Below, one piece after another: positions 306 through 20,382 of a stretch of DNA of 20,382 nucleotides. The DNA is from a virus. Made by a program: the position numbers and the translations under genes. Within the stretch, counting starts at the first letter, position 1. Every line of letters begins with the position of its first letter. Location: positions 1 to 20,382 of the IMG/VR virus record IMGVR_UViG_3300017744_001653, one strand, 5' to 3'. Below the pieces are notes generated by a model. It worked only from the letters and a program-made list of their open reading frames with translations. It was not told the DNA's origin and did no database searches.

Positions 306-695
306 TTATTTAGTGTCTGACACCTTTTCTTCAGGATTATCTTTTTTGTCATAGTCTCTATAAAACTTCACGATTGATAATGTATCTCTTAAATATCGTT
401 TGATTTCTGCCATATTCATAGACAAGTTTTCATATTCTTTGCTAGTTAAAGAGTAGTATGCAACAGCAGGTGCAGAGCCATTTTCATAATCTACTAGATA
501 ATCTTTCATTAATTCAGGAGTTAATATTACCCAGTCTATATCTGTAAGTGCCACCTCATAGGGGAGAGGAGGATGGTACATTGGAACTGGCTCTGCAATC
601 GTTACTACCTCTACAGGTTTAGTTGTAGGTAGCATAGAACAATTAGCCAAGACTATTAGTATGATTGTGTTGCTTATTAATTTTAAACTATTCAT
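306..695 (-). CDS. Putative o-spanin (Rz1-like outer-membrane lipoprotein)
   Basis: A 129-residue protein from the ATG at 695; an in-frame TTG lies one codon earlier. The N-terminus is a lipoprotein signal: a lysine near the start, a hydrophobic stretch (IILIVL) and then L-A-N-C with the acceptor cysteine at residue 19. Asn just before the cysteine is less usual than Gly, Ala or Ser. A short proline-containing segment (HPPLPY) follows, then a mostly polar domain. The gene starts eight bases before the end of the coiled-coil membrane protein upstream, the arrangement of Rz/Rz1 spanin pairs, in which inner- and outer-membrane subunits together disrupt the outer membrane at lysis. It is longer than classical Rz1. 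The spanin call rests on context and topology rather than sequence identity. Confidence 0.65.
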   Translation of the reverse strand: MNSLKLISNTIILIVLANCSMLPTTKPVEVVTIAEPVPMYHPPLPYEVALTDIDWVILTPELMKDYLVDYENGSAPAVAYYSLTSKEYENLSMNMAEIKRYLRDTLSIVKFYRDYDKKDNPEEKVSDTK

Positions 696-1077
696 CAAAC
701 TGATTTGGGTCTGTTAAGGCTATTATTTCTTCTTTGACTTTTTTTGTACCCTTGTTCACAATGTTTTCTATTAACTTAGGTTTCTTCAATGCTAAATTAT
801 CTAAATCATGTTTTGCAAAGGTTGTTCTTAATTTGTTTACTTCTTTTACTGCTTCCTGTTTTTCTTTTTCTATTGCTTGTATTTGCTTTTGTGCCTGTTC
901 CTGATTCGCAAGGTAAGTTTTTATAGATGCATTTTGTTCTGCTATAGATTTTTCTAAGGCTATTTGATTGCCTTTGAGTGTTGATATGTTGTCTTGAAGT
1001 CTATCAATATACCAAGCACTACCTGATATTGAGACTAACAATAAACCACCTAGTATTATTGATAACTTGAATCCCAT
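688..1077 (-). CDS. Putative i-spanin (Rz-like inner-membrane coiled-coil protein)
   Basis: A 129-residue protein with an N-terminal transmembrane helix (residues about 4-23, LSIILGGLLLVSISGSAWY) and almost no cytoplasmic part. A long, charged coiled coil follows (about 25-95, rich in Glu, Lys and Gln). A conserved-looking C-terminal segment comes next, containing FAKHDLDNLALKKPKLIENI. Similar F-x-x-HDL...KP.LIE segments occur, as I recall, in Rz-like proteins of many marine phages. The topology is that of an i-spanin, anchored in the inner membrane with a periplasmic coil that binds the o-spanin. The downstream lipoprotein gene overlaps its 3' end by eight bases, supporting a spanin pair. 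No strong Shine-Dalgarno is seen before the ATG, so coupling to the cyclase gene ending 20 bases upstream is possible. Confidence 0.7.
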   Translation of the reverse strand: MGFKLSIILGGLLLVSISGSAWYIDRLQDNISTLKGNQIALEKSIAEQNASIKTYLANQEQAQKQIQAIEKEKQEAVKEVNKLRTTFAKHDLDNLALKKPKLIENIVNKGTKKVKEEIIALTDPNQFDE

Positions 1078-1097: not shown

Positions 1098-2915
1098 TTA
1101 CCTTTTATACAATTTTCTGATTTCTTCTTTTATAAAAGGAGCATATATTACTACAGGTTCTTCTTTACCTTTTACCTTAATTTCATCAATACGCTGACAA
1201 GCTGTGTTTGCTTCATTGTAAGTATATTCAGATATAAGTATTGGCGTGTCATAGGTTCTTGTTTGTACTTCTAATCTAGCACCAAGATTTACAGCATCTC
1301 CAACAACTGAATAATCAAACCTGAGTTCAGAACCCATATTACCTACAATACAAGTTCCTGTGTTTACCCCAGTTCCTATAACGACTGGTGGTAAATCATA
1401 ACCATCTTCTTTTAGTTGTAAATTAAGCTGTTCTGTAAGTAATTCTATTTCTATAGCAGTTTTTACACCCATTTCAGCATGATTATTACAAGGCAAGGGT
1501 GCGTTCCAAAAAGCCATAATACAATCGCCCATATACTTATCAATAGTTCCACCATTTTTAAGAATTACCTTAGTCATGCGATCTAAAAACAAATTAATCA
1601 ATTCTACTAAGCCTTCAGGGTCATCATTTTTCATGTAGGCTTCTGATATAGGCGTAAAACCTACAATATCTGCAAACATAAACGTCATTTCTTTTCTATC
1701 TCCACCTAACTTCATCAATGAAGGGTCTTTTACAATCATATCTACCATATCAGGCGATATATAAGTACCAAACTGTCCTTTTATTTGTTCTCTTAGCTTC
1801 CATTGTTCTCTAAAGCGTAAATAGAATGCTATTGCTCCAGTAATGAACTGTGCGATTAGTGTCCATGTAACATCTATTAATAAACCCCTGTGGATAAGTG
1901 CATATCCTGTATAAGCTGTTAATAACATCACAAATAAAGCTGTTATAAGTCCATAGGTTATGCCCAAAGCGTTTAATAGAATCCATATAAGGCTTACTGA
2001 GACTACAAATATTAGTATTTCTAAAGCTAATGCCCAATCAGGTATATAAGGACTGTCTTGTATTAAGATTGATTCTGATAGAGCTGCTTGTATCTTATGT
2101 GGTTCTAATAATCCTACAGGAGTAGCTATTTGTGGCATCACACCATTAGCAGTAACGCCAACAAAAACAAACTTTCCTGCAACATTCATTTCTTTTAAGT
2201 CTGTTTGAGGTGTATCTACCCAACTTATCCACTTACGCCCTAAACTATCTGTTTTAACTGGTGGTATTCCTCTAATTGATATTTCTTCTATACCATTATC
2301 ATTAGTTTTTATAATGTAAGTTTTTACACCAAACAATGCTTTATAGATTTGTGTTCCAAAAGCAGGAATCCAGTCGTTATCAGGTGTGCTTACAAGTAAT
2401 GGGATTCTGCGAACAAGTTGGTCAACTTCGGTGGGAGCAATGGCTAGACCCTGCAGTGTATTATCTTTTAGAGTGTTCAGGTTTTCCTTAACTCCCATAG
2501 AGACTATAGCACGAACATCATTACCTTTGACAACAGTTCCTGCAGGTTTTGGATAATTTCCACTATTATCTTCAAACATAGCTAAAACAGATGGTGCATA
2601 ACCTAATGTTGTAGCAAAAACTTCATCACCACCCATTCTGTCTGCTTGTGGAAAAGATATAACCCAACCTACTCCAATTGCACCTTCATTGATAAGGTCA
2701 ACTTGTATTTGAGCTAGTGTTCTTCTTGGAAATGGATAGCCACCCTGATCTTCTACATCTTCTTCTGTAATATTTAGAATTACAAAGTTACCTGATGGTT
2801 CTTGTTGTTTAACTAACCCATCAAAGGTTCTTAGTTTTAGTATTTCAGTTGGTGTGCTTTGAAATATAAGTGGGAGTGATAATAGTATTACTATCGGAAA
2901 CAGAAATCTTTTCAT
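1098..2915 (-). CDS. CHASE2-domain class III adenylate cyclase, membrane-bound
   Basis: A 605-residue protein from ATG at 2915. An upstream in-frame TTG at 2945 lies inside the terminator and is unlikely to be used. Domain order: an N-terminal membrane helix (about 3-20); an extracytoplasmic CHASE2-like sensor (about 25-290, with the typical FVFVG segment near its end); three transmembrane helices (about 295-316, 318-341, 345-367); a short linker; and a class III cyclase domain (about 405-590). The catalytic set is complete: metal-binding Asp416 (FADIVGF) and Asp464 (MGD), adenine-selecting Lys460 and Asp534 (RFDYSVVGDAVN), ribose-binding Asn543 and transition-state Arg547. This predicts conversion of ATP to cAMP under control of an extracytoplasmic signal. 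A cyclase of this bacterial type between phage tail and lysis genes is very unusual. No clear Shine-Dalgarno or promoter is seen; expression may depend on read-through of the terminator just upstream. Confidence 0.92.
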   Translation of the reverse strand: MKRFLFPIVILLSLPLIFQSTPTEILKLRTFDGLVKQQEPSGNFVILNITEEDVEDQGGYPFPRRTLAQIQVDLINEGAIGVGWVISFPQADRMGGDEVFATTLGYAPSVLAMFEDNSGNYPKPAGTVVKGNDVRAIVSMGVKENLNTLKDNTLQGLAIAPTEVDQLVRRIPLLVSTPDNDWIPAFGTQIYKALFGVKTYIIKTNDNGIEEISIRGIPPVKTDSLGRKWISWVDTPQTDLKEMNVAGKFVFVGVTANGVMPQIATPVGLLEPHKIQAALSESILIQDSPYIPDWALALEILIFVVSVSLIWILLNALGITYGLITALFVMLLTAYTGYALIHRGLLIDVTWTLIAQFITGAIAFYLRFREQWKLREQIKGQFGTYISPDMVDMIVKDPSLMKLGGDRKEMTFMFADIVGFTPISEAYMKNDDPEGLVELINLFLDRMTKVILKNGGTIDKYMGDCIMAFWNAPLPCNNHAEMGVKTAIEIELLTEQLNLQLKEDGYDLPPVVIGTGVNTGTCIVGNMGSELRFDYSVVGDAVNLGARLEVQTRTYDTPILISEYTYNEANTACQRIDEIKVKGKEEPVVIYAPFIKEEIRKLYKR

Positions 2916-2931
2916 CACAAAATAATAGCAT

Positions 2932-2955
2932 AAAAAAAGGGTCAATTAAGACCCT
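2932..2955 (-). terminator. Intrinsic (Rho-independent) terminator after the small moron-like gene
   Basis: On the minus strand a six-base-pair stem, AGGGTC with GACCCT around a six-base loop TTAATT (2955-2938), is followed directly by a run of T residues (2937-2932). The plus strand also has T residues after the stem (2959-2964), so it could act in both directions. It lies between the stop of the gene at 2995 and the cyclase ATG at 2915, so it should end the transcript of the former and limit read-through into the latter. The stem is short, so efficiency may be moderate. Confidence 0.72.
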
Positions 2956-2994: not shown

Positions 2995-3354
2995 TTAACT
3001 AATAGTGTTTTCAAAAGTAGCCATAAGACTTCCATCTTGAAAATAAATTTTATGATCTCCATTGTACATAAATCCATTGATATCAAAGTTATTTATAACT
3101 TCTGTATCTCCCCAATTTTCATAAATTTTATTACCATTACGACCATTACCCATTGGCACTAAAAAGTAAGTGACATCATCATGAACTAAAACATCACCTT
3201 CTGATGTACTTCTGTGACCATCATCAGACCATGCTTCGTCTATATTTTGTGTTTTTCTGTATGCATATTGAAAAGACTCTGTATCAATAGTAGCTACAAG
3301 TTTGTAAGGCTTTTCGTTATTTGCGAATTCAGTTGCTTGGTATACTTTTATCAT
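2995..3354 (-). CDS. Hypothetical protein with GHRSTSEGDV motif, moron-like
   Basis: A 119-residue soluble protein without a signal peptide or membrane segment. It begins MIKVYQATEF and has a central motif D-G-H-R-S-T-S-E-G-D-V-L-V (residues about 45-57). An arginine-serine-rich motif followed by GDV recalls small phage and plasmid proteins of the YodL-like type, but I cannot assign a function. An AAGGAA Shine-Dalgarno lies about seven bases before the ATG. The gene is singular in this window in having its own sigma70-like promoter (3401-3429) and its own intrinsic terminator (2932-2955), so it can be expressed independently of the long late transcript. That arrangement is typical of morons, lysogenic-conversion genes or early-expressed inserts. 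Confidence 0.7.
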   Translation of the reverse strand: MIKVYQATEFANNEKPYKLVATIDTESFQYAYRKTQNIDEAWSDDGHRSTSEGDVLVHDDVTYFLVPMGNGRNGNKIYENWGDTEVINNFDINGFMYNGDHKIYFQDGSLMATFENTIS

Positions 3355-3457: not shown

Positions 3458-4576
3458 TTATTCGCTTTGCGTAATAGTTATCACAGAGTCTCCACCACCA
3501 TTTATCTTAACAACATTAGAAACACCATCTTGGATGATAATTAAAGTATAAGCATCATTGCCATCAAGGTCTAATCTCACAGAATCATTTACACTTCTTC
3601 TTATACTAATCACATCACCAGCTATTAAGGTTGTTATTTGTGTTTCTGTATCTTGACCTATTCTTGTACCTTTAATATCTATACCACCTGTATCAGCTAA
3701 AACGTCTTCATCTTTACTAATAGCTAATGAGTCTAATACATTTAGCAAATCTTCAAGAAAGTTTGTATCAAGGTAGTTAATATCTAATTCTGTAAACTCT
3801 AACTCATCTTCTCCAAGAAAGTCCTCATCAAGATAATCTATGTCTAGGTCATTAAAATCTAAAATGTTTTCTTTTGAGTTTTGTGAAACTTCTTCTGTGA
3901 TATCTATTTCTTTTTTTGGTGGTGTGACAATTAACATATTATCAATAATGTCTAATGTTAAATCTAATATGACTGGTTTACTTGGTTTAGATTCAAAAAC
4001 ACTTACTGTAGTTGCTTGATAAGGTTTATTTAATAAAACAGTACCCATAGCAGTAACAACTTCTATTTCACCACTAGACAAGCCTAGAGCATCAGGCAAA
4101 AGTATTATTAGTGATCTCCCCAACTCATCAACTGTAGCTGTAAAATCTGTTCCACGAATAGCAATATTTGCTGTTGGTGTCTTTAGCTTTATGTTTTGTT
4201 TATCTATTCTGTTTAAATTGCCTGTGATAAATCTTGCTGTTCCTAAACCAAATGTAAGAGCCATCTTTGATTTAGATGGGTCAGGGTCATAGATGTATTC
4301 ATCTATTAACAGTTGTGAATGTTCTGTAAGTTTTACAACAGAATCATCAAGAAATGTAATAGCCATTCTGCCATTAGATGTAATAGCTTCATCATTGCTT
4401 TGTATAGCAAATTCTAGGGTAGCATCTAGTGGCTTGTCTCTTACTATTTTTGCTGAACCATTAAGTTCAGATATCCCACCAATATCAGCAGCTAGTGCTT
4501 GTTCCTTGATCGTTTTGGATAATACAAACAGTGGAAGCAGCATTCCCACCAATACTAATAACTTTAAGCCAGTCAT
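3458..4576 (-). CDS. Secreted FecR-domain protein with acidic repeats and curlin-like C-terminus
   Basis: A 372-residue protein. Residues 1-30 look like a signal peptide (MTGLKLLVLVGMLLPLFVLS, then an alanine-containing cleavage region). Residues about 42-150 match a FecR domain (PF04773): I-V-R-D near 44, the 'SNGRMAITFLDDS' strand (67-79), a Y-x-Y-D-P segment, and the signature TPTANIAIRGTDF (133-145). An acidic region (about 236-280) contains two copies of LDI(D/N)YLDxxFL. The last 30 residues (IIIQDGVSNVV, then ITITQSE at the end) have the alternating Ile/Val, Q-x-G-x-x-N and terminal Q pattern of curlin repeats. The gene starts 92 bases inside the upstream curlin-like gene. FecR proteins act in the periplasm as sensors or binding partners; here a link to curli assembly or to the CHASE2 cyclase downstream is plausible but inferred. 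No Shine-Dalgarno is evident at the chosen ATG. Confidence 0.85.
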   Translation of the reverse strand: MTGLKLLVLVGMLLPLFVLSKTIKEQALAADIGGISELNGSAKIVRDKPLDATLEFAIQSNDEAITSNGRMAITFLDDSVVKLTEHSQLLIDEYIYDPDPSKSKMALTFGLGTARFITGNLNRIDKQNIKLKTPTANIAIRGTDFTATVDELGRSLIILLPDALGLSSGEIEVVTAMGTVLLNKPYQATTVSVFESKPSKPVILDLTLDIIDNMLIVTPPKKEIDITEEVSQNSKENILDFNDLDIDYLDEDFLGEDELEFTELDINYLDTNFLEDLLNVLDSLAISKDEDVLADTGGIDIKGTRIGQDTETQITTLIAGDVISIRRSVNDSVRLDLDGNDAYTLIIIQDGVSNVVKINGGGDSVITITQSE

Positions 4577-5216
4577 TGTCTTGTGTACTCAGTTGTTGAA
4601 TATTAAAAGTTCTTTGTCCACCTGTATGATCTAACCAAAAGTAACCTCCTGCTGAAGAAGTAACACCTGTACCTGTATAGTTTACTGTATTATCACTTCC
4701 GTCAATATCCATGTAGTTTGTTGCACCATCAATATTTATGTTAGATGTAATAGTGTTATTAGAACCTTGTATTATCCAGTCTAAATCTAGTGTAGCTGCT
4801 AATGCAGTAGTTCCTTGATTTAAAGTAAATGTATTACTAGAGCCTGTAACAGCTATGTTCTGATTTGAACTGTCAGCACCAAAAGTATTACTTGGGTCAA
4901 CTTGTATAGTAAAGACATTACTATTACCAGTGAAGTTGTATAAAGCAGTGAAGCTATCTGCCCATATATCACCTAGAAACTTGTTAGTGTTTCCAATCAT
5001 GTTAATGTCAATAGTCATGGTTGTGCCATCAATATCAAAAGGTGTAAGACTACCAGCAGTAGAATTAAGACCACCTATGATATTAGATATACCAAGTTGC
5101 TCTATATCAAGATTTAATGTTGTACCACTTTGGTCTAAATATATTTCGTTATCAGCCGCGAATATTGGCAATGCAATCAGCATCACACTCAGGCTTATTA
5201 ATTTTAGTTTCTTCAT
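4485..5216 (-). CDS. Curlin-like secreted protein (candidate CsgA/CsgB-type fibre subunit)
   Basis: From ATG at 5216 the protein has 243 residues. It opens with a classical Sec signal peptide (MKKLKLISLSVMLIALPIFA, cleavage predicted after FAA near residue 21). The rest is low-complexity, rich in Asn, Gly, Ser, Thr and Ile, with many G-x-x-N turns (GTTLN, GISN, GNTN, GNSN, GSSN, GSNN, GATN, GSDN) and Q-x-G units such as IYLDQSG and FTLNQG. Stacked strand-turn repeats with Gln and Asn in register are what curlin subunits show. The spacing is less regular than in CsgA, so a CsgB-like or divergent subunit is likely. The GGAG before 5216 supports this start over one ten codons upstream. It directly follows the CsgG gene, overlapping it by 65 bases, so it is the natural candidate cargo for the pore. 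Two Cys residues near the C-terminus are unusual for curlins. Confidence 0.68.
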   Translation of the reverse strand: MKKLKLISLSVMLIALPIFAADNEIYLDQSGTTLNLDIEQLGISNIIGGLNSTAGSLTPFDIDGTTMTIDINMIGNTNKFLGDIWADSFTALYNFTGNSNVFTIQVDPSNTFGADSSNQNIAVTGSSNTFTLNQGTTALAATLDLDWIIQGSNNTITSNINIDGATNYMDIDGSDNTVNYTGTGVTSSAGGYFWLDHTGGQRTFNIQQLSTQDNDWLKVISIGGNAASTVCIIQNDQGTSTSC

Positions 5217-6021
5217 GTTTCCAAAAACTCCTGTCGTAACCGACATTAATTAATTCTAAAACTGCACCCTCAATGGCTTTCATCAAGGCTATAGTTGTAG
5301 ACTCATTGCGAGAATTTCCTAATTCAATTTCAACAAGTTCTGTACCCATTTCTATGAATCTAAAAACATCTTCTGACTTACCATAACTAAATATGGTTTT
5401 TTGGCTTAATACTTCTATAAGTATTTCACCAGTTGCAACTGATACCATGCGAAGGGAAACAGTAATATTATCTTCTCTGTATTGAATACTAGTTCCTATT
5501 CCTAAATACCTAGCACCAACGCCACCAGTTGACAAGTTACTATCATAACTTATTACAGCACCTTCTAACAAGACACCTGCAAATAGCAGTGGTGGTACAT
5601 TCTTATCTTCACCTTCTTTTGCAAATTGTTCTCTTGCAGACCTTATCAACTGTCTTTCTTTAGTTAGATTATCTAAACCCACCCTTTCTACCACCCTAAA
5701 GAACTCACCATTACTTGCATGTTTTAATGCTCTAATTAATAAAGTGTGTGGTGCTTGGGTTACAGCAGTAGAAAACAAAGCAAACTCACTGTTGCTTTTA
5801 CGCTGTCCTGTTTGATCTGTAAACGCTGAAGGGTAAACTGCTACAACAGGTAGCACTGAAGGTTTTTTTACATTAGCAAGTTCTTCTGAATTTAACTCTG
5901 CAATATTTACTATATCCTTAGACTTGTATCTAAGTTCTACAGTATCTTCAAACTGGTTAAAAATTGAACAACTAGAAAGTAAAAGAACCGATAGGTATTG
6001 TAATTTCTGTAACTGTGCCAT
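5152..6021 (-). CDS. csgG: CsgG-like outer-membrane curli secretion channel (lipoprotein)
   Basis: A 289-residue lipoprotein with lipobox L-S-S-C (Cys18). The mature region aligns with E. coli CsgG from memory over nearly its full length: D-x-T-G-Q-x-K (69-75), FSTAV (83-87), ALK (98-100), ERVGLDNL (112-119), ERQLIRSA (122-129), the hallmark SNLSTGGVGARYLGIG (161-176), ATGEIL (196-201), VFRFIE (219-224), IALMKAIE (244-251) and LINVGYDRSFW (257-267). CsgG forms a nonameric pore in the outer membrane that exports unfolded curli subunits. The eyelet loop differs from E. coli: Phe56 is kept (F83), but Asn55 is Leu, and the Tyr51 area is changed with an extra residue. The length is similar to bacterial CsgG, and there is a short cysteine-containing C-terminal tail. 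It overlaps the CsgF-like gene upstream by 50 bases and the curlin-like gene downstream by 65. Confidence 0.96.
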   Translation of the reverse strand: MAQLQKLQYLSVLLLSSCSIFNQFEDTVELRYKSKDIVNIAELNSEELANVKKPSVLPVVAVYPSAFTDQTGQRKSNSEFALFSTAVTQAPHTLLIRALKHASNGEFFRVVERVGLDNLTKERQLIRSAREQFAKEGEDKNVPPLLFAGVLLEGAVISYDSNLSTGGVGARYLGIGTSIQYREDNITVSLRMVSVATGEILIEVLSQKTIFSYGKSEDVFRFIEMGTELVEIELGNSRNESTTIALMKAIEGAVLELINVGYDRSFWKHEETKINKPECDADCIANIRG

Positions 6022-6514
6022 CTGCTTCGGTTATTTTTAAAGTTAAATATGTTCCATCAGATGAATACTCTATAGTATTTCCTTCTAAGGATATAGTTCC
6101 ACTTGACTGTGGTGTTTCACCAAATAAATTAGCGATTAGCTGTCTGCTAAGTTCTGCATATACTCTACTTTCAAAATTTCTAATAAATCTTTGCACTGTA
6201 GAATTTTCTTTATCTCTTTCTGCTTCTTCTTTAGCAGCTTTAATCTCATCTTTTATTTTTTGTTTTCTATTAAATTCTTGGTTTTCAATGGTCAGATAAT
6301 GACTAGATGTATTAATCCCACTAAAACTAGGTGACTTAAACTTATGAACTATTTGGTCTGCTTTAAGATTTTGTACAAATATGCCTATAATTAAAGCCAA
6401 TCCAAAAGCCACTACAAACCATGTTATTCTAGTTTTTTCTAGTTCATCTTTCCTACGCTTTAGTTCAGCGTTACTAGGTCTACCTCTTTTCTTCTTAATC
6501 TTTTCTTTGGTCAT
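5972..6514 (-). CDS. csgF: CsgF-like curli assembly factor with basic, membrane-anchored N-terminus
   Basis: From ATG at 6514 the protein has 180 residues; an in-frame TTG six codons upstream is less likely. Residues 54-180 resemble CsgF. The segment HKFKSPSFSG (57-66) matches the N-terminal F-x-N-P-x-F-x-G motif with which CsgF binds inside the CsgG pore. The C-terminal part (LTLKITEADGTVTEITIPI) matches the CsgF strand pattern of a ligand-like domain ending in T-x-I-x-V. In CsgF the signal peptide precedes this motif directly. Here a hydrophobic helix (32-48) is preceded by about 30 charged residues with KKKRGRPSNAELKRRK, which resembles an AT-hook core. The helix may be an uncleaved anchor or an unusual signal. 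A long charged helical region (about 80-118) replaces the middle of E. coli CsgF. The gene overlaps its upstream neighbour by 20 bases and CsgG by 50. Confidence 0.8.
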   Translation of the reverse strand: MTKEKIKKKRGRPSNAELKRRKDELEKTRITWFVVAFGLALIIGIFVQNLKADQIVHKFKSPSFSGINTSSHYLTIENQEFNRKQKIKDEIKAAKEEAERDKENSTVQRFIRNFESRVYAELSRQLIANLFGETPQSSGTISLEGNTIEYSSDGTYLTLKITEADGTVTEITIPIGSFTF

Positions 6515-6845
6515 CTCTATCTGCCTTAGCAATTTTACTGCTATCTATAAGTTGAGGTACGCCAAGAATAGTTTTAATTAAAGTGTCTTGTCTTATAATT
6601 TCATTGTCTAAACTACGCACCCTATCAATTAATGCTACTAGTATTCCATGTTGTGAGTCAAGTTTTGTGCCTAGTCGTTCTTCTATAGCTGCTATTTGTG
6701 ATTCTACTTTTTCATCAACATTATCAAGTTTAGTTTCCATGCCATCTACAATACGCATAATTAGTTTGTATATAAACCAACCCAAGCCAACAGAAGCTGC
6801 TATTGGAAAACCAACCTCTTGAATTACTTTTATTGCCATATCCAT
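6495..6845 (-). CDS. Holin-like membrane protein with coiled coil
   Basis: A 116-residue protein with one transmembrane helix near the N-terminus (about 11-31, GFPIAASVGLGWFIYKLIM). A long charged coiled-coil region follows (about 34-100, with heptad-like EE, KV and DS spacing). This topology, short periplasmic N-terminus, helix, cytoplasmic coil, is seen in small phage membrane proteins annotated as holins or BhlA/UviB-like proteins, and the opening E-V-G-F-P-I is common among them as I recall. It stands at the junction of the tail-fibre genes and the curli cassette, with its stop overlapping the CsgF-like start. It could be the phage holin, or a membrane protein of the curli cassette. No Shine-Dalgarno is evident; the upstream gene ends two bases before it, suggesting translational coupling. 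Confidence 0.6.
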   Translation of the reverse strand: MDMAIKVIQEVGFPIAASVGLGWFIYKLIMRIVDGMETKLDNVDEKVESQIAAIEERLGTKLDSQHGILVALIDRVRSLDNEIIRQDTLIKTILGVPQLIDSSKIAKADRDDQRKD

Positions 6846-7042: not shown

Positions 7043-7629
7043 TATTTAAAACCTAAAGTAACAGGAGATGATGTCGGACTAGAAAAAACACCTGCTGCTG
7101 TTGAACTATCAGCCATAGTCCAAATTCTAGTGCTTCCTACCTGCTGAAAAGTTAGACTACTTCTTGTACGAGTTGCATTTGGTGTGCCACTTGTATTTGA
7201 CTGATTGTAATAAATATCAACTGTAGTCCACCCTGCGTTTCCTGTAGGTGTTCCAGTTGTATCAGAAATATAAAACTGGGTTGCATTATTATTTACAGCG
7301 TACCATTGCCAACTTGGATTAGTGCTATATAAATCACAAGTTGCATCTGACACAGAGCCAAAAGCTGTAGAGCCAACATTACCATAACCCTGAAATGATT
7401 GACCAAAAATTGTAGTTGCTGCATTAGTGACTGTAACAATCCAATCATAATAAGATGCACCATAAAAGTTAGACATAGATATTGCACCTGAAGATACACC
7501 TGCAAGACTTCTTAAATCTGTTTCACCCATAGATGATGTAGCAGTTGCTGATCTCCCTAATTCAACATTAATTGACCTGTCAGTTGTAGTGCCACCAATG
7601 GACATAGTTCCACTAGATGCTAGAGTCAT
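7042..7629 (-). CDS. Small tail-associated adhesin-like protein
   Basis: A 195-residue protein, rich in Ser, Thr, Gly and Asn and almost free of Lys. The first 60 residues contain the pattern GTMSIGG...INVELGRS...DLRSLAG...GAISMSNFYGAS. As I recall, this pattern (…ISLSDLYG) is common at the N-terminus of phage tail appendage or virion proteins from marine and other environments. The C-terminal part (about 65-195) looks like a beta-rich domain with aromatic residues (W, Y), as expected for a receptor- or glycan-binding module. It starts 17 bases inside the megaprotein gene, so it is translated from the same message. Likely a short fibre, tip or adhesin; the exact role is inference. Confidence 0.65.
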   Translation of the reverse strand: MTLASSGTMSIGGTTTDRSINVELGRSATATSSMGETDLRSLAGVSSGAISMSNFYGASYYDWIVTVTNAATTIFGQSFQGYGNVGSTAFGSVSDATCDLYSTNPSWQWYAVNNNATQFYISDTTGTPTGNAGWTTVDIYYNQSNTSGTPNATRTRSSLTFQQVGSTRIWTMADSSTAAGVFSSPTSSPVTLGFK

Positions 7630-10600
7630 TATCTAACCTAACCTTTAATGCATCTATTTGCTTTTGTTGGTCTTTAACAGTTTCAATTAAATATCCAACT
7701 AAGTTGCCATATGCTACTGACTTAGTACCCATTTCATCATCTGCAGTCATTACAAGTTCAGGTGCTATTTCTTCTATTTCTTGTGCAATAACACCACTAC
7801 TTTTAACACTATCTTTAATAAAGCTAACACCACGCATTTGTAATGCTTTTTTACTGTCTAGTGTTTGTATGTTTGTTTTTAATCTTTTGTCTGAAAAGGC
7901 TGTTACGTTGCCACTACTTGTTATTTCACCTGAAGATATAGTTCCTATGTTGCTCATATTACGAGAACTATCTATAACAGTCGTTCCTGCATTTACAGTT
8001 CCAATTTTTAATGATCTACATATTGGTGCAGCACTTTGTATAACAATTCCATAATCACCACTATCAGAACCATAATAATAAGCTGCACCATCAACTGCTG
8101 ATATAAGATTTTTACCATTATGACCTTTGTAATCTATTGATGCTGTTGTAGAACTTGAACCAAATTCAGTTCCTTTTACTGCACCTGAACTTGTTATTGC
8201 ACCTGATGATATAGTTCCAACTGTAATATTTGGACTACCTGATAACCCTGTTGCAGTAATACCAAGTGCGTTTATTTGTGCTTGTGTTTGGTCTGCTGTA
8301 GCACCACTTTCTATGCCATCTAATTTTGAACCATCTGCTGAAATATCTCTACCATCAACAGTTCCTGTTACTGTCATATTTCCTGATAAAGCTATGCTTG
8401 TTAAACCTGTTAGTGCAGTATCAAGATTAAGAGTGACAGCACCTGACGTGCCACCACCATTAAGGTTAGTACCTGCACCGACTGAAGTAATGTCTCCAGT
8501 TCCACCACCACCGACAGCAGAACCATTAAAGTATAAAGAACCACTTACGTTATATAGTTTGTTAGTTGTAGTGCTTGGTGTTTGTGATGGTAAGGCTAAA
8601 GCATCTGCTGTAACCTCTCCAGTGAAGGTTGCGTTCTGTGATGAGTCAAATGTTAGAGCTAAAGCACCATCTGCATTAATCTTGAATGTGCCACTTGCTC
8701 CACCATCTGCAGATAGGGTTGTGCCACCAACAGCATCATAAACCAAGCCAACAACTTGCGTATTTCCTGAACCTGCCTGTATTCTAAAACCACCACTACC
8801 TGTTGAACTTCTTAGTATTGCATCTGCTTGTGTAGTATCGCTTGATATTCCAGTAACTTTACCAATTATTAAATCAGGTTGAGTTCCTGTAGCTTCAAAA
8901 TTACCAGCTACAACAAAATCTCCATCAATAGCAGCTCCTTCATTAAGAGTTAGTAAACCAATACCACCAACTTCTGAATAAGTTAAAACATCATCTAAAG
9001 GCTCGTTATTTAATGTAATAACACTAGCATCTAAAGTACCTGTAACAGTGGCGTTAGTCACATTTAATGAAGTAGCTGTAACTGAGCCAGTTATTGTGGC
9101 ACTTGTTGCAGTTAATGCTCCACCACTTGTCACAATAAAAGCACCTGAACCTAAATTAATAGATGACGAAGAACCATTAATTGCAATACCTGAATTGTTA
9201 ATAGTTACATCACCACCACTAACAGTCACATTGGCTGCATTTAAAGTACCTGTATCTATATCATTAGCACTTATAGAACCAAAGACACCTGAATCTGAAG
9301 TTATAGTACCTGCTGTGATTCTGTCTGCATCTATACTACGTGCTATTACCTTTGCACCTGCTATCGTGCCATCTACAACTAAATCGCCTGTAGTGAAATT
9401 ACTGATCTCTACAAAAGAACCACCACTTCCTGATGTCCCTGAATATTTATAGGCTTTTGATACTTTTGGACTAGCACTGGTGTTGACCATAATTAAAACA
9501 TCATCATCAAAAGGTAATCTTCCATGTGCTGTGTTGAATGCTGAATCTGAAAGAGCAGTAGTTGTGTTACCCTCTACATGAAAATAACCTGAAAAATTAG
9601 GTATAACAATGTCTGTAGCTTCTACCTTTGTAAAAGAACCAGCAGCCTGACTAGATGCACTAGATACTTTATCAAAAAAAGACACAGCTTTAACTTTAAA
9701 ATAATATGTAGTTGAATCTGAAAGACCATCATCAATACCAAAAGATACCTTTTGTGTAGCACTTGGAACACCTGCTATCGTTCTTACAAGATTAGTACCA
9801 TCATTGGGTGTAAACCCTGAACTTGTAGCTCTATAAATCTTAATATCCCTTAAATCAGTGTTACTTGGATTTACCCAAGACAAACCTATAGATAATGGTT
9901 TACCTGTAGTAGCTGATAAAGAAGTAGGAGCAGATGGTGTTGCTATACCTGTTCCTGAACTAGTATTTATATTAACTTCACTTGTATTAGCACTAAAAAC
10001 ATTATTAGCTGAAAAATGTCTAGCTACTATGTAATAAACTGAATTAGCTTTTACATTAGGTATGATTTCTTTAGTTTTACCTTTACCTGCAATCAATGAA
10101 CCAATGTAAGTACCTGAAGATGTGCCATAAAGTATTTCAGTACCTTGTATTAAATCATCAGGGTTGTTTGTCCACTGAACTTGTAAATCATAACCAGTGT
10201 TAATTAAAGTTGCTGATACTGATAAACCTGTTGGTGCTGTTACGCTAAAACTACCTGTAGAAACGCTTGTGCCTTCGTCTATGGGACTGGTATAACTACT
10301 TGAAGCAAATGCATATACAGAAGAATCAATCTCTTTAAGGGCAAGTCTTGTAGCAAGAACTGGAACATCATCTGATTCTATAACTTCTAAATTTGTGCTT
10401 AAAACTTCAAATGTTTTGTTTGTATAACCCAGTCTTTCGTTTGTAAGGTAAACCCAATCAAATGGTTGTAGTTGCATATAAGCAATATTGCAAAGAACTG
10501 AAAGACTGACTTCTTTTCTAGTATGCAATAAAGCTGTTCTTTGTAACCTTTGTGCCATTGTAGTTGTATCTGTAAATGGCAACTGTATTTCTAAAGATTT

Positions 10601-12007
10601 TCTATAATTTGCTGAAGATTCTCCAGTTGGGGTGTCGTTACTTAAAAAAGTGCTATCTGTGTAAACAGGTGAATCGGTAGCTATATAATTATTATTAGCA
10701 TCTACATATACAGCTTTTACAGTATTAAAAGACTCTCCACTACTTTGTTTTGTAGCTATAGATATCGGTGCTAATAAATTATCGTCTGTGATTGTCATAT
10801 CAGGCGTAACAGAAGCACCTGCAAACATTACAAACTTACCATCTATATAAGATAACTTACCTGCACAAGAACTTAGCAATCCTTCTATGACATCACTACC
10901 ACTAGCAGACATATTTGTTATGCCATTTGCTGTATAGAGTTCTTCTGTGAATGTTAGAGTTACACCATCAGCTATAGTTTGTGCTGATGATAAAGTAATT
11001 ACTAAACCTCTTCTTCTAACAACCTTAACTGTTCCTGATATACCTGTACCTGTGACTGTTTGACCAACATCTATAAGTGTCAATGTTGATGATGTGTCTA
11101 CTGTTACAGTCGTTGAACTTGATATAGCACCATTGACTGTAGCTGTTCCGATGGTGTTACCACTATCACAAGTATTGGCTGCTGATGAAAAACCACCTAA
11201 AGCTGTTGTGTCTAAGACTTCGCTAGATGTCGCTTTTAATCCATAAGTAGTGTCAGTTATATAATCCCTTACACATAGAGCAGGATTATCAGACCATGCA
11301 GTAGATGATGTTCTAGGGTCATAAACTTTCTTACCTTTTACAACAAAAGCCATAGGTGGAATACCACCACCAAATGCTTCAGAATCTACAACCATTTCTA
11401 TCAACATATAAGACATGCCAATAAACTTGTCTGAAGATGTTAAAGATGTGTTATTTACTACAGTTGAATTAGCTGTTGTTTGTGAGCCATCTACAAAAAC
11501 ATATCTAAGCAAAGAACTTTGTACGCCAAATTTATTTTCATTATCAGCATTAACAAATTTACTATTTGTTGCATATTGGAATCCACCACTTGAAACAGTA
11601 GTTAAAATCTCATCATTAATAAGTACATCTTCAAGACCTTCTACTTCATGTCCTGCCAAAACAACTATCATAGATAGCTTGTAGTTATCAGTTCCTGAGG
11701 TTTCTATATGAGTTATTGTTCCACCGACTCTAGCTTTACCATATATTATCTGTCTTGGTGCAGTGGCTGTTCTTGATGCTATTTTATTACCGAAGTTTTC
11801 CGTAGCAGTAGCTTTGATGCCTTTTGACATCAATCCACCGACTAAAGTTGATATAGCTGATAAAGCAGCCATTTCCATTGCTGTTACACCAAATAAAGTG
11901 GCTGCTGCACCACCGACACCTGCTGTTCCGAACACAAAAATTGCACCTGACATAACAGCAAATGTCACTACAAATATTGTTACTGCTGCTTTTACTGCTT
12001 TAGCCAT
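7613..12007 (-). CDS. Tail-tip / central fibre megaprotein with fibronectin III repeats and S74 autoprocessing domain
   Basis: At 1464 residues this is the largest gene in the window. The N-terminus (about 1-60) is hydrophobic, Ala/Gly-rich and resembles lambda-J and GTA-g15-type tail tip proteins. Residues about 60-330 carry the tail-tip region (APRQIIYGKARVGG, DPRTSSTAWSDNPALCVRDY). Two fibronectin type III-like domains follow (about 590-690, starting TAPTGLSVSA; and 695-790, starting SAPTSLSATTG). A long region of Ile/Val-Thr-Gly strands (about 895-1350, e.g. ADRITAGTIT and DGRDISADGSKLDGIESGAT) is typical of triple beta-helix fibres. The C-terminus (1372-1464) is a peptidase S74 intramolecular chaperone with S-D-K-R-L-K at Ser1372, where autoproteolysis is expected after trimerisation, and a final coiled coil. 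It joins baseplate and receptor-binding roles in one chain. A GGAGAG lies before the ATG, which overlaps the DUF6950 gene by eight bases. Confidence 0.9.
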   Translation of the reverse strand: MAKAVKAAVTIFVVTFAVMSGAIFVFGTAGVGGAAATLFGVTAMEMAALSAISTLVGGLMSKGIKATATENFGNKIASRTATAPRQIIYGKARVGGTITHIETSGTDNYKLSMIVVLAGHEVEGLEDVLINDEILTTVSSGGFQYATNSKFVNADNENKFGVQSSLLRYVFVDGSQTTANSTVVNNTSLTSSDKFIGMSYMLIEMVVDSEAFGGGIPPMAFVVKGKKVYDPRTSSTAWSDNPALCVRDYITDTTYGLKATSSEVLDTTALGGFSSAANTCDSGNTIGTATVNGAISSSTTVTVDTSSTLTLIDVGQTVTGTGISGTVKVVRRRGLVITLSSAQTIADGVTLTFTEELYTANGITNMSASGSDVIEGLLSSCAGKLSYIDGKFVMFAGASVTPDMTITDDNLLAPISIATKQSSGESFNTVKAVYVDANNNYIATDSPVYTDSTFLSNDTPTGESSANYRKSLEIQLPFTDTTTMAQRLQRTALLHTRKEVSLSVLCNIAYMQLQPFDWVYLTNERLGYTNKTFEVLSTNLEVIESDDVPVLATRLALKEIDSSVYAFASSSYTSPIDEGTSVSTGSFSVTAPTGLSVSATLINTGYDLQVQWTNNPDDLIQGTEILYGTSSGTYIGSLIAGKGKTKEIIPNVKANSVYYIVARHFSANNVFSANTSEVNINTSSGTGIATPSAPTSLSATTGKPLSIGLSWVNPSNTDLRDIKIYRATSSGFTPNDGTNLVRTIAGVPSATQKVSFGIDDGLSDSTTYYFKVKAVSFFDKVSSASSQAAGSFTKVEATDIVIPNFSGYFHVEGNTTTALSDSAFNTAHGRLPFDDDVLIMVNTSASPKVSKAYKYSGTSGSGGSFVEISNFTTGDLVVDGTIAGAKVIARSIDADRITAGTITSDSGVFGSISANDIDTGTLNAANVTVSGGDVTINNSGIAINGSSSSINLGSGAFIVTSGGALTATSATITGSVTATSLNVTNATVTGTLDASVITLNNEPLDDVLTYSEVGGIGLLTLNEGAAIDGDFVVAGNFEATGTQPDLIIGKVTGISSDTTQADAILRSSTGSGGFRIQAGSGNTQVVGLVYDAVGGTTLSADGGASGTFKINADGALALTFDSSQNATFTGEVTADALALPSQTPSTTTNKLYNVSGSLYFNGSAVGGGGTGDITSVGAGTNLNGGGTSGAVTLNLDTALTGLTSIALSGNMTVTGTVDGRDISADGSKLDGIESGATADQTQAQINALGITATGLSGSPNITVGTISSGAITSSGAVKGTEFGSSSTTASIDYKGHNGKNLISAVDGAAYYYGSDSGDYGIVIQSAAPICRSLKIGTVNAGTTVIDSSRNMSNIGTISSGEITSSGNVTAFSDKRLKTNIQTLDSKKALQMRGVSFIKDSVKSSGVIAQEIEEIAPELVMTADDEMGTKSVAYGNLVGYLIETVKDQQKQIDALKVRLDNDSSI

Positions 12008-19362: not shown

Positions 19363-20382
19363 CTATCCTTCCAATGTTTCTATTCTAGTTTTTAAATCGT
19401 CTATTATTGTTTGTTGTTCTTGTATAGCTTTTACAAGCAATGGTGTGAGTTTTCCATAATCCATAGTTTGTATTTCTTCGCCATCTTTTTCACCTTTAAC
19501 TACATAAGGAACTATCTCTTGAACTTCATGTGCTATAAAACCTTCATCAGTTTCTTGTGATTTTTTCCAATCAAATTGAACTGGTTTTAATTTATTAACT
19601 CTATCTAAACCATCTTTTAGAGGTATCACATTTTCTTTTAATCTGTAGTCTGAACCAGCGTTGTAAGAAACTGCTGAACCATTAGTTGAAATATTACCAG
19701 TATTACCACCATCTGACCTAAATTGAACATGAGGACTACTTGAGCCATTACTCATATTTAAAATTAAATTTATATCATCATTAGTTGCGTTAACTTGTTG
19801 TCCACCACCAAAAGAATGACCATAATTAGTTGTGCCATTTGAAAGTCCTGAAGCTGTTGTGGTGCTTACTAACAATGTTCCACTACTATTTATTCTCATG
19901 CGTTCTGAACCTAATGTGTCAAAACGTAAATAATCTTGTGCATTATTAAAGGTTATTTCTTCTCCTGCACCATTACCTATAGTATTTGAAAGGTAGATGT
20001 CTTTGAATCTTTGACCTGATGCACCTAAATCAATCGCATTATCTCTACCACTATTACCTGAACCTGAAGATGTGAATGGTCTTATACAGTCTAATGAATC
20101 AGCAAATTGAACTGCTGTATCACCAGTACCAATAACTATATCACCACCTTCAGTACCAATACTTCCAACTACATTTCCTTGTTTGCGTAATACTAAGATA
20201 CTTCCATCATTAGAGTTGTTCTTGCCAATTTCCATAACAGCACCATTAGCATCTGTAGCAATTTCAACTTTACCTGTTGATGCTGCATAACCAAAACCTT
20301 TTTGAGAAGCAAATCCACTAGCAGGATTAACAACTGTATTACCCACCAACAAGTTACCTGATGAGTCTATTCTCATGCGTTC
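19363..20382 (-). CDS. Fibre/appendage protein with C-terminal peptidase S74 chaperone domain, 5' end outside window
   Basis: The frame is open to the window edge, so at least 339 residues are present and the true start is missing. The visible part has Gly/Ser/Asn-rich strand repeats, including E-R-M-R-I-(D/N)-S-S-G-x-L-L-V twice, and DIYLSN, all common in phage fibre shafts. The last 96 residues form an S74 intramolecular chaperone: S-D-Y-R-L-K with the expected cleavage Ser, GFIAHEVQEIVP, MDYGKLTPLLVKAIQEQ and a terminal coiled coil. The domain helps trimerise the fibre and is then normally cut off. Its location just before the head-tail connector genes, away from the tail-tip genes, suggests a head fibre or other separate appendage, but the upstream context is not visible. 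Confidence 0.85.
   Translation of the reverse strand, partial: ERMRIDSSGNLLVGNTVVNPASGFASQKGFGYAASTGKVEIATDANGAVMEIGKNNSNDGSILVLRKQGNVVGSIGTEGGDIVIGTGDTAVQFADSLDCIRPFTSSGSGNSGRDNAIDLGASGQRFKDIYLSNTIGNGAGEEITFNNAQDYLRFDTLGSERMRINSSGTLLVSTTTASGLSNGTTNYGHSFGGGQQVNATNDDINLILNMSNGSSSPHVQFRSDGGNTGNISTNGSAVSYNAGSDYRLKENVIPLKDGLDRVNKLKPVQFDWKKSQETDEGFIAHEVQEIVPYVVKGEKDGEEIQTMDYGKLTPLLVKAIQEQQTIIDDLKTRIETLEG
19891..19905. repeat. 15-base direct repeat, copy 1 (second copy 20368-20382)
   Basis: The 15 bases tattctcatgcgttc occur here and again at the right window edge, both within the S74 fibre gene. They encode the repeated shaft motif E-R-M-R-I. The copies reflect a repeated protein motif about 160 residues apart and may promote recombination between fibre segments. 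Confidence 0.8.
20368..20382. repeat. 15-base direct repeat, copy 2 (first copy 19891-19905)
   Basis: Same 15 bases as at 19891-19905, in the same frame of the fibre gene. The repeat may extend beyond the window. Confidence 0.75.

Follow-up and report, generated by a model that had tools for sequence, protein, structure and literature searches.

The gene at positions 1098–2915 on the minus strand of the IMG/VR virus record IMGVR_UViG_3300017744_001653 (the window; 20,382 bases, analysed at its full length) is a member of a known and widespread phage module. The gene is real and intact, and its product is probably an active receptor cyclase. We see about an even chance that the product is an inner-membrane receptor adenylate cyclase that, as part of a curli-type cassette, responds to the status of curli and FecR in the envelope by making cAMP.

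The curli cassette in the window and in other phages

On the minus strand of the window, head-tail connectors are followed by the genes of a siphovirus-type tail (major tail protein, tape measure, distal tail, lambda J-like fibre), and these by the lysis region. The cyclase ORF is part of a late operon, as a preliminary description of this DNA had said, and lies between tail and lysis genes. The interpretation given there was supported in part; it had missed what lies directly upstream of the cyclase, namely a 119-aa ORF, FecR, a curlin-like protein, CsgG, CsgF and a small transmembrane protein. Genes for Rz- and Rz1-like spanins lie directly downstream. The features around the cyclase are:

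6495–6845, minus strand: small protein with N-terminal transmembrane helix and coiled coil, heading the cassette (family HMM)
5972–6532, minus strand: CsgF (Pfam, 8.5e-17)
5152–6021, minus strand: CsgG, the curli outer-membrane pore (Pfam, 1.6e-47)
4485–5246, minus strand: curlin-like secreted repeat protein (alignment with curlin-associated proteins of HTVC008M and Melnitz)
3458–4576, minus strand: FecR-domain protein with N-terminal signal-like segment (Pfam FecR, 2.8e-9)
3461–3502, minus strand: curlin-like C-terminal tail of FecR, NGGGDSVITITQSE ([IV]x[IV]xQ ending; alignment)
2995–3354: 119-aa ORF between FecR and cyclase, without match (in the window and L002)
2938–2955, minus strand: intrinsic-terminator-like hairpin, 22 bases before the ATG of the cyclase (shared with L004)
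688–1077, minus strand: Rz-like spanin, downstream of the cyclase (phrog_739, 2.3e-13)
306–698, minus strand: Rz1-like spanin (phrog_812, 1.6e-12)

The cassette is a predicted gene set for the secretion of curli-like fibres, and CsgF, CsgG, the curlin-like protein and FecR (3458–6532) stand with the cyclase in the order of the phage T8SS module. This T8SS/curli module of pelagiphages was described in myo- and podoviruses, with metatranscriptomic evidence for its expression, and the cyclase is not in every viral curli region (Wittmers et al. 2022, PMC9599517). Pelagibacter phage HTVC008M has the genes of the window in unchanged order as gp011–gp019, namely small protein(s), CsgF, CsgG, curlin, FecR and adenylate cyclase, and the cyclases are 40% identical. 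The Methylophilales phage Melnitz (PMC9004378) has this order as well, including FecR and cyclase, but its cyclase is only 29% identical and its host is a different one. The authors consider that CsgGF might form a lysis pore; neither the cyclase nor FecR came up in a word search of that text. The window differs from the pelagiphage module in that the phage is of the siphovirus type, with a lambda-like tail tip and the cassette placed between tail and spanin genes, and in that a second curlin gene is missing between FecR and cyclase. The second curlin gene of HTVC008M (L082, 7637–8962) encodes a PA14 domain and curlin repeats. The carriage of the curli/cyclase cassette by a siphovirus-type phage is new here.

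Relatives of the cyclase are found on at least 595 IMG/VR stretches, and in GenBank the phages that give a long match are HTVC008M and four isolates of Melnitz. The family is already in PHROGs (phrog_35576, no function given there), and BFVD contains a phage protein that shares the overall fold, under the name 'COG4252 Predicted transmembrane sensor domain'. With so many viral relatives and a place in the published pelagiphage module, the gene can no longer be called highly unusual, as it was at first. Beyond PMC9599517, literature searches turned up nothing specific on phage CHASE2 cyclases or SAR11 cAMP receptors.

The linkage is constant. Among viral loci with room upstream of the cyclase, FecR is present in 36 of 36 and CsgG, CsgF and curlin in 35 of 36; the lone exception, L016, is a short contig. 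The FecR stop and the cyclase start overlap or lie at most 10 nt apart in 28 of 51 loci, and in 20 of the 51 the two genes are separated by an insertion longer than 200 bases, with a second curlin-type gene in several. This slot is variable, since it holds the 119-aa ORF in the window and L002, an unrelated 153-aa ORF in L004 and a second curlin gene in other phages. In the window's group one more gene and a terminator-like hairpin stand between FecR and cyclase, so that their coupling is not tight there.

The small transmembrane protein that opens the cassette occurs in one or two copies of 93–116 aa in relatives, and its family HMM matches gp011/gp012 of HTVC008M and 97/98 of Melnitz. A histidine kinase, 'sometimes two', is listed in the pelagiphage curli module (PMC9599517); from position and copy number, this is probably the same small protein. 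Pfam found no kinase domain in the copy of the window (6495–6845), which gave a weak holin-family match (phrog_1296, E = 0.003).

The relative L004, whose cyclase is 95% identical to that of the window, also encodes terminase, portal and major capsid proteins and, past the spanins, an endolysin. The head and tail genes of a relative are nearest to phages of varied hosts, Rhizobium and Roseobacter phages included. An integrase (PF00589) was absent from 16 virus records including the window, several of them fragments, so that the lysogenic state invoked in the preliminary description is without support. The loci scanned for tRNA genes contained none. Two fibre-type proteins of the window (7613–12007 and 19363–20382) have similar C-terminal RLKxN...IAQE/IAHE segments, typical of the self-cleaving chaperone ends of tail fibres; one of the two sits between head and tail genes.

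Architecture and active site of the predicted cyclase

The domains of the protein, as predicted, are:

1098–2915, minus strand: CHASE2 receptor class IIIb adenylate cyclase, 605 aa (Pfam; phrog_35576, 1.9e-146; AlphaFold2, mean pLDDT 87.5)
2001–2885, minus strand: extracytoplasmic CHASE2 sensor, residues about 11–305 (Pfam match, converted from 615-aa numbering)
1767–2033, minus strand: three membrane helices and linker helix, residues about 295–383 (AlphaFold2 helices 295–316, 318–342 and 350–383; hydropathy)
1155–1694, minus strand: class III cyclase catalytic domain, residues about 408–587 (Pfam, conservation, structural match to CyaB/CyaC)

The ORF starts with ATG at 2915 and stops at 1098. 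An alternative TTG start at 2945, 10 codons upstream, would give 615 aa, but lies inside the terminator-like hairpin. Between the T-run of this hairpin and the ATG there is a TATTAT; a clear ribosome-binding site was not seen, and a promoter scan gave a result no better than shuffled sequences.

The combination of a CHASE2 sensor with a class III cyclase, noticed at first from the letters alone, was confirmed by Pfam, in which CHASE2 (E = 2.7e-23) and Guanylate_cyc (E = 9e-17) both scored well over their gathering scores. The CHASE2 match spans profile positions 3–253 of 257 (83.3 bits) and is thus a full-length domain. Three membrane helices do lie between sensor and cyclase, as described before; the total is four, since the AlphaFold2 model and hydropathy place one more at the N terminus, so that CHASE2 is flanked by membrane helices as in a CHASE2 receptor. 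The modelled C-terminal domain superposes on CyaB of Pseudomonas aeruginosa (3r5g) and CyaC of Spirulina (1wc1) with Z about 26.7 and an rmsd of 1.7–1.9 over 188 residues. These class IIIb enzymes have the same catalytic fold and the same metal-binding, adenine-site and transition-state residues; their regulatory domains differ from those of the phage cyclase. The structure matches listed for the model were all on the cyclase domain, with no fold match to CHASE2 alone among them.

The catalytic residues are nearly invariant among 49 phage homologues. The metal-binding D416 and D464, the adenine-site K460 and the transition-state R547 are present in 49 of 49 and N543 in 48 of 49, all at the numbers first assigned to them. 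Asp534, which had been paired with Lys460 for adenine selection, is conserved; in the alignment with 3r5g and 1wc1 it is not the adenine-selecting residue. It is Ser536 that aligns with the adenine-selecting Thr of CyaB and CyaC, and this position is Ser in 37, Thr in 11 and Asp in one of the 49. Ser or Thr in this column is the pattern of class IIIb cyclases, and together with the metal Asp pair, the Lys and the Asn and Arg the protein has the residues of a class III (IIIb) adenylate cyclase. From the aligned Ser536 and the Ser/Thr in 48 of 49 homologues, ATP is the likely substrate, in line with the ATP-type pocket proposed earlier. The dN/dS of phage cyclases is 0.09–0.29 (ten pairs), which shows that the cyclase is under purifying selection and kept for function.

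FecR and the bacterial counterparts

Bacterial CHASE2 cyclases such as CyaD1, CyaD2 and CyaK of Sinorhizobium meliloti have the same CHASE2, three membrane helices and class III cyclase. The S. meliloti enzymes raise cAMP on a signal relayed via the outer-membrane protein NsrA, which is a precedent for a cyclase that responds to the envelope (PMC13001267). Phage and bacterial CHASE2 cyclases are 30–34% identical. In an unrooted, quick tree with 75 bacterial CHASE2 cyclases, the phage cyclases form one separate clade (100% SH-aLRT) rather than clustering with host enzymes. The sampled bacterial relatives are mostly 727–760 aa long and have a C-terminal extension of about 62 residues and a CHASE2 insert of about 24 residues; the phage form is without both. 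Two SAR86 single-cell genomes (L117 and L122) contain CHASE2 cyclases of the related bacterial type.

Many bacterial CHASE2 cyclases also adjoin FecR genes. FecR is found within 3 kb at 23 of 52 bacterial loci, against about 1.3 expected from the density of FecR further out (3 in 718 kb), and pairs of FecR and a CHASE2 histidine kinase are known in Burkholderia and Pseudomonas (PMC5192318). CsgG or CsgF was near the cyclase at 0 of 80 bacterial loci. In a small sample of five alphaproteobacterial CsgG loci curlins were present, and CsgF in most, and FecR and CHASE2 cyclase were absent within about 10 kb. Since bacterial cyclases adjoin FecR without CsgG/CsgF and curli loci are without FecR and cyclase, the phage cassette looks like two joined modules, curli secretion and an envelope-sensing pair of FecR and CHASE2 cyclase, that are separate in the bacteria sampled. 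A bacterial donor of the entire cassette was sought and not found among the 80 cyclase loci and the small sample of five CsgG loci.

The FecR model matches the FecR-type structures PupR and BDI_1681; outside the FecR domain, model confidence is low. The C terminus sets the phage proteins apart and would be where the two modules meet: an [IV]x[IV]xQ ending followed by at most 4 residues is present in 45 of 45 unique phage FecR proteins, those of HTVC008M and Melnitz included, versus 0 of 32 bacterial ones, and in 15 of 756 and 9 of 3221 background ORFs. Several bacterial curlins share such ends (ITITQH, VTVTQN, ITITQIKP), and from this likeness we infer that the FecR tail acts as a curlin-type repeat. 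One bacterial FecR partner bears cadherin, laminin-G and Ig-type domains, so that a tie between FecR and surface polymers may be more general.

The most likely mechanism is as follows. FecR, suited by its curlin-like tail to register curlin status, would respond to curlin subunits that are exported, nucleated or accumulating at the CsgG pore. CHASE2 would read the state of FecR in the periplasm, and the cyclase would turn this envelope state into intracellular cAMP, made from ATP. The constant linkage of the cyclase to CsgF, CsgG, curlin and FecR, often with overlapping FecR and cyclase frames, supports this reading. The FecR-domain protein SMc02177 of S. meliloti counts against sensing by FecR, since it was reported to be dispensable for the perception of the plant signal (PMC5498481). 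The loose coupling of FecR and cyclase in the window's group also counts against it.

cAMP receivers and alternative readings

Against cAMP signalling from the cassette speaks its output step, which in SAR11 is without a canonical effector among 58 genomes. These genomes belong to the same order as G226, in which the SAR11-441R 16S probe has an exact match, and we take this order to be SAR11. Class III cyclases, class I cyclases and HTH_Crp matches over cut-off were each found in 0 of 58. A cNMP-binding match was found in four of the 58; it is weak and lies in a CNB-acyltransferase protein. This protein (L164, 919–3264), with the order's only CNB matches, has two weak cNMP-binding domains and a weak GDSL-lipase-like match; no obvious phosphate-binding motif was seen in it. 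With cyclases absent and cyclic-nucleotide-binding domains nearly all absent, a canonical cAMP response is unlikely in SAR11. This result bears directly on HTVC008M; the host of the window phage may differ and may well have CRP-type proteins. A CRP-type receiver encoded by the phages themselves was also considered; 17 phage records, of which several are fragments, gave no match to PF00027. It is conceivable, though doubtful, that the cassette brings a full second-messenger input to SAR11, a lineage with no cAMP circuit of its own, in which FecR and cyclase would report fibre secretion as cAMP to an unrecognised receiver, perhaps the product of an uncharacterised gene of the phage's own.

The phage cyclase could instead raise host cAMP, as the preliminary description predicted, and so drive a CRP/Clr-type regulon of the host, with the curli genes as mere neighbours, which we regard as improbable. 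The intact active site would allow it, cNMP-binding domains over cut-off were found in 139 of 190 genomes of a class-wide alphaproteobacterial sample, and the phages nearest to the relative's head and tail genes infect varied hosts. The near absence of such domains from the host order of HTVC008M, the constancy of the FecR and CsgG linkage and the missing integrase do not fit host reprogramming. Somewhat less probable still is a cyclase that does not signal at all, be it as an ATP drain or as a passenger of a transferred curli/FecR module. A receiver was found neither in SAR11 nor in the 17 phage records, and the cyclase is sometimes missing from viral curli regions (PMC9599517), but a passenger would hardly be under purifying selection with catalytic residues invariant over deep phage divergence, and a CHASE2 domain, also retained, is needless for draining ATP.

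PADLOC models of PycC match the cyclase domain (best 9.3e-21), which would suit a Pycsar-like or counter-defence enzyme that makes or mimics an immune cyclic nucleotide. We consider this very unlikely, for the match is limited to the domain that cyclases have in common, the pair Lys460/Ser536 would by alignment suit a purine (ATP) pocket, and the relatives in bacteria are CHASE2 cyclases, which often adjoin FecR. Membership in a Pycsar system was rejected: a PycTM or PycTIR effector is missing among the neighbouring genes scanned, which are FecR, the 119-aa ORF without match and the spanins. That host DNA was joined to phage DNA at an assembly breakpoint, for which the bacterial-type domain content speaks and nothing further, is practically excluded by the single clade of phage copies, with identical cassette junctions in many independent contigs and an even base composition over the whole window.

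Taken as a curli-linked receptor, the cyclase of the window shows that a known module of marine phages also occurs with a further type of tail. It also sharpens the central puzzle, a strongly conserved and predicted-active cyclase with relatives in phages whose SAR11 hosts have almost no known cAMP responder. Since cAMP-responsive proteins are almost absent there, the published idea of an enterobacteria-like action via cAMP-CRP and CsgD looks unlikely in SAR11. The curlin-like tail of FecR provides a concrete link between fibre secretion and the receptor.
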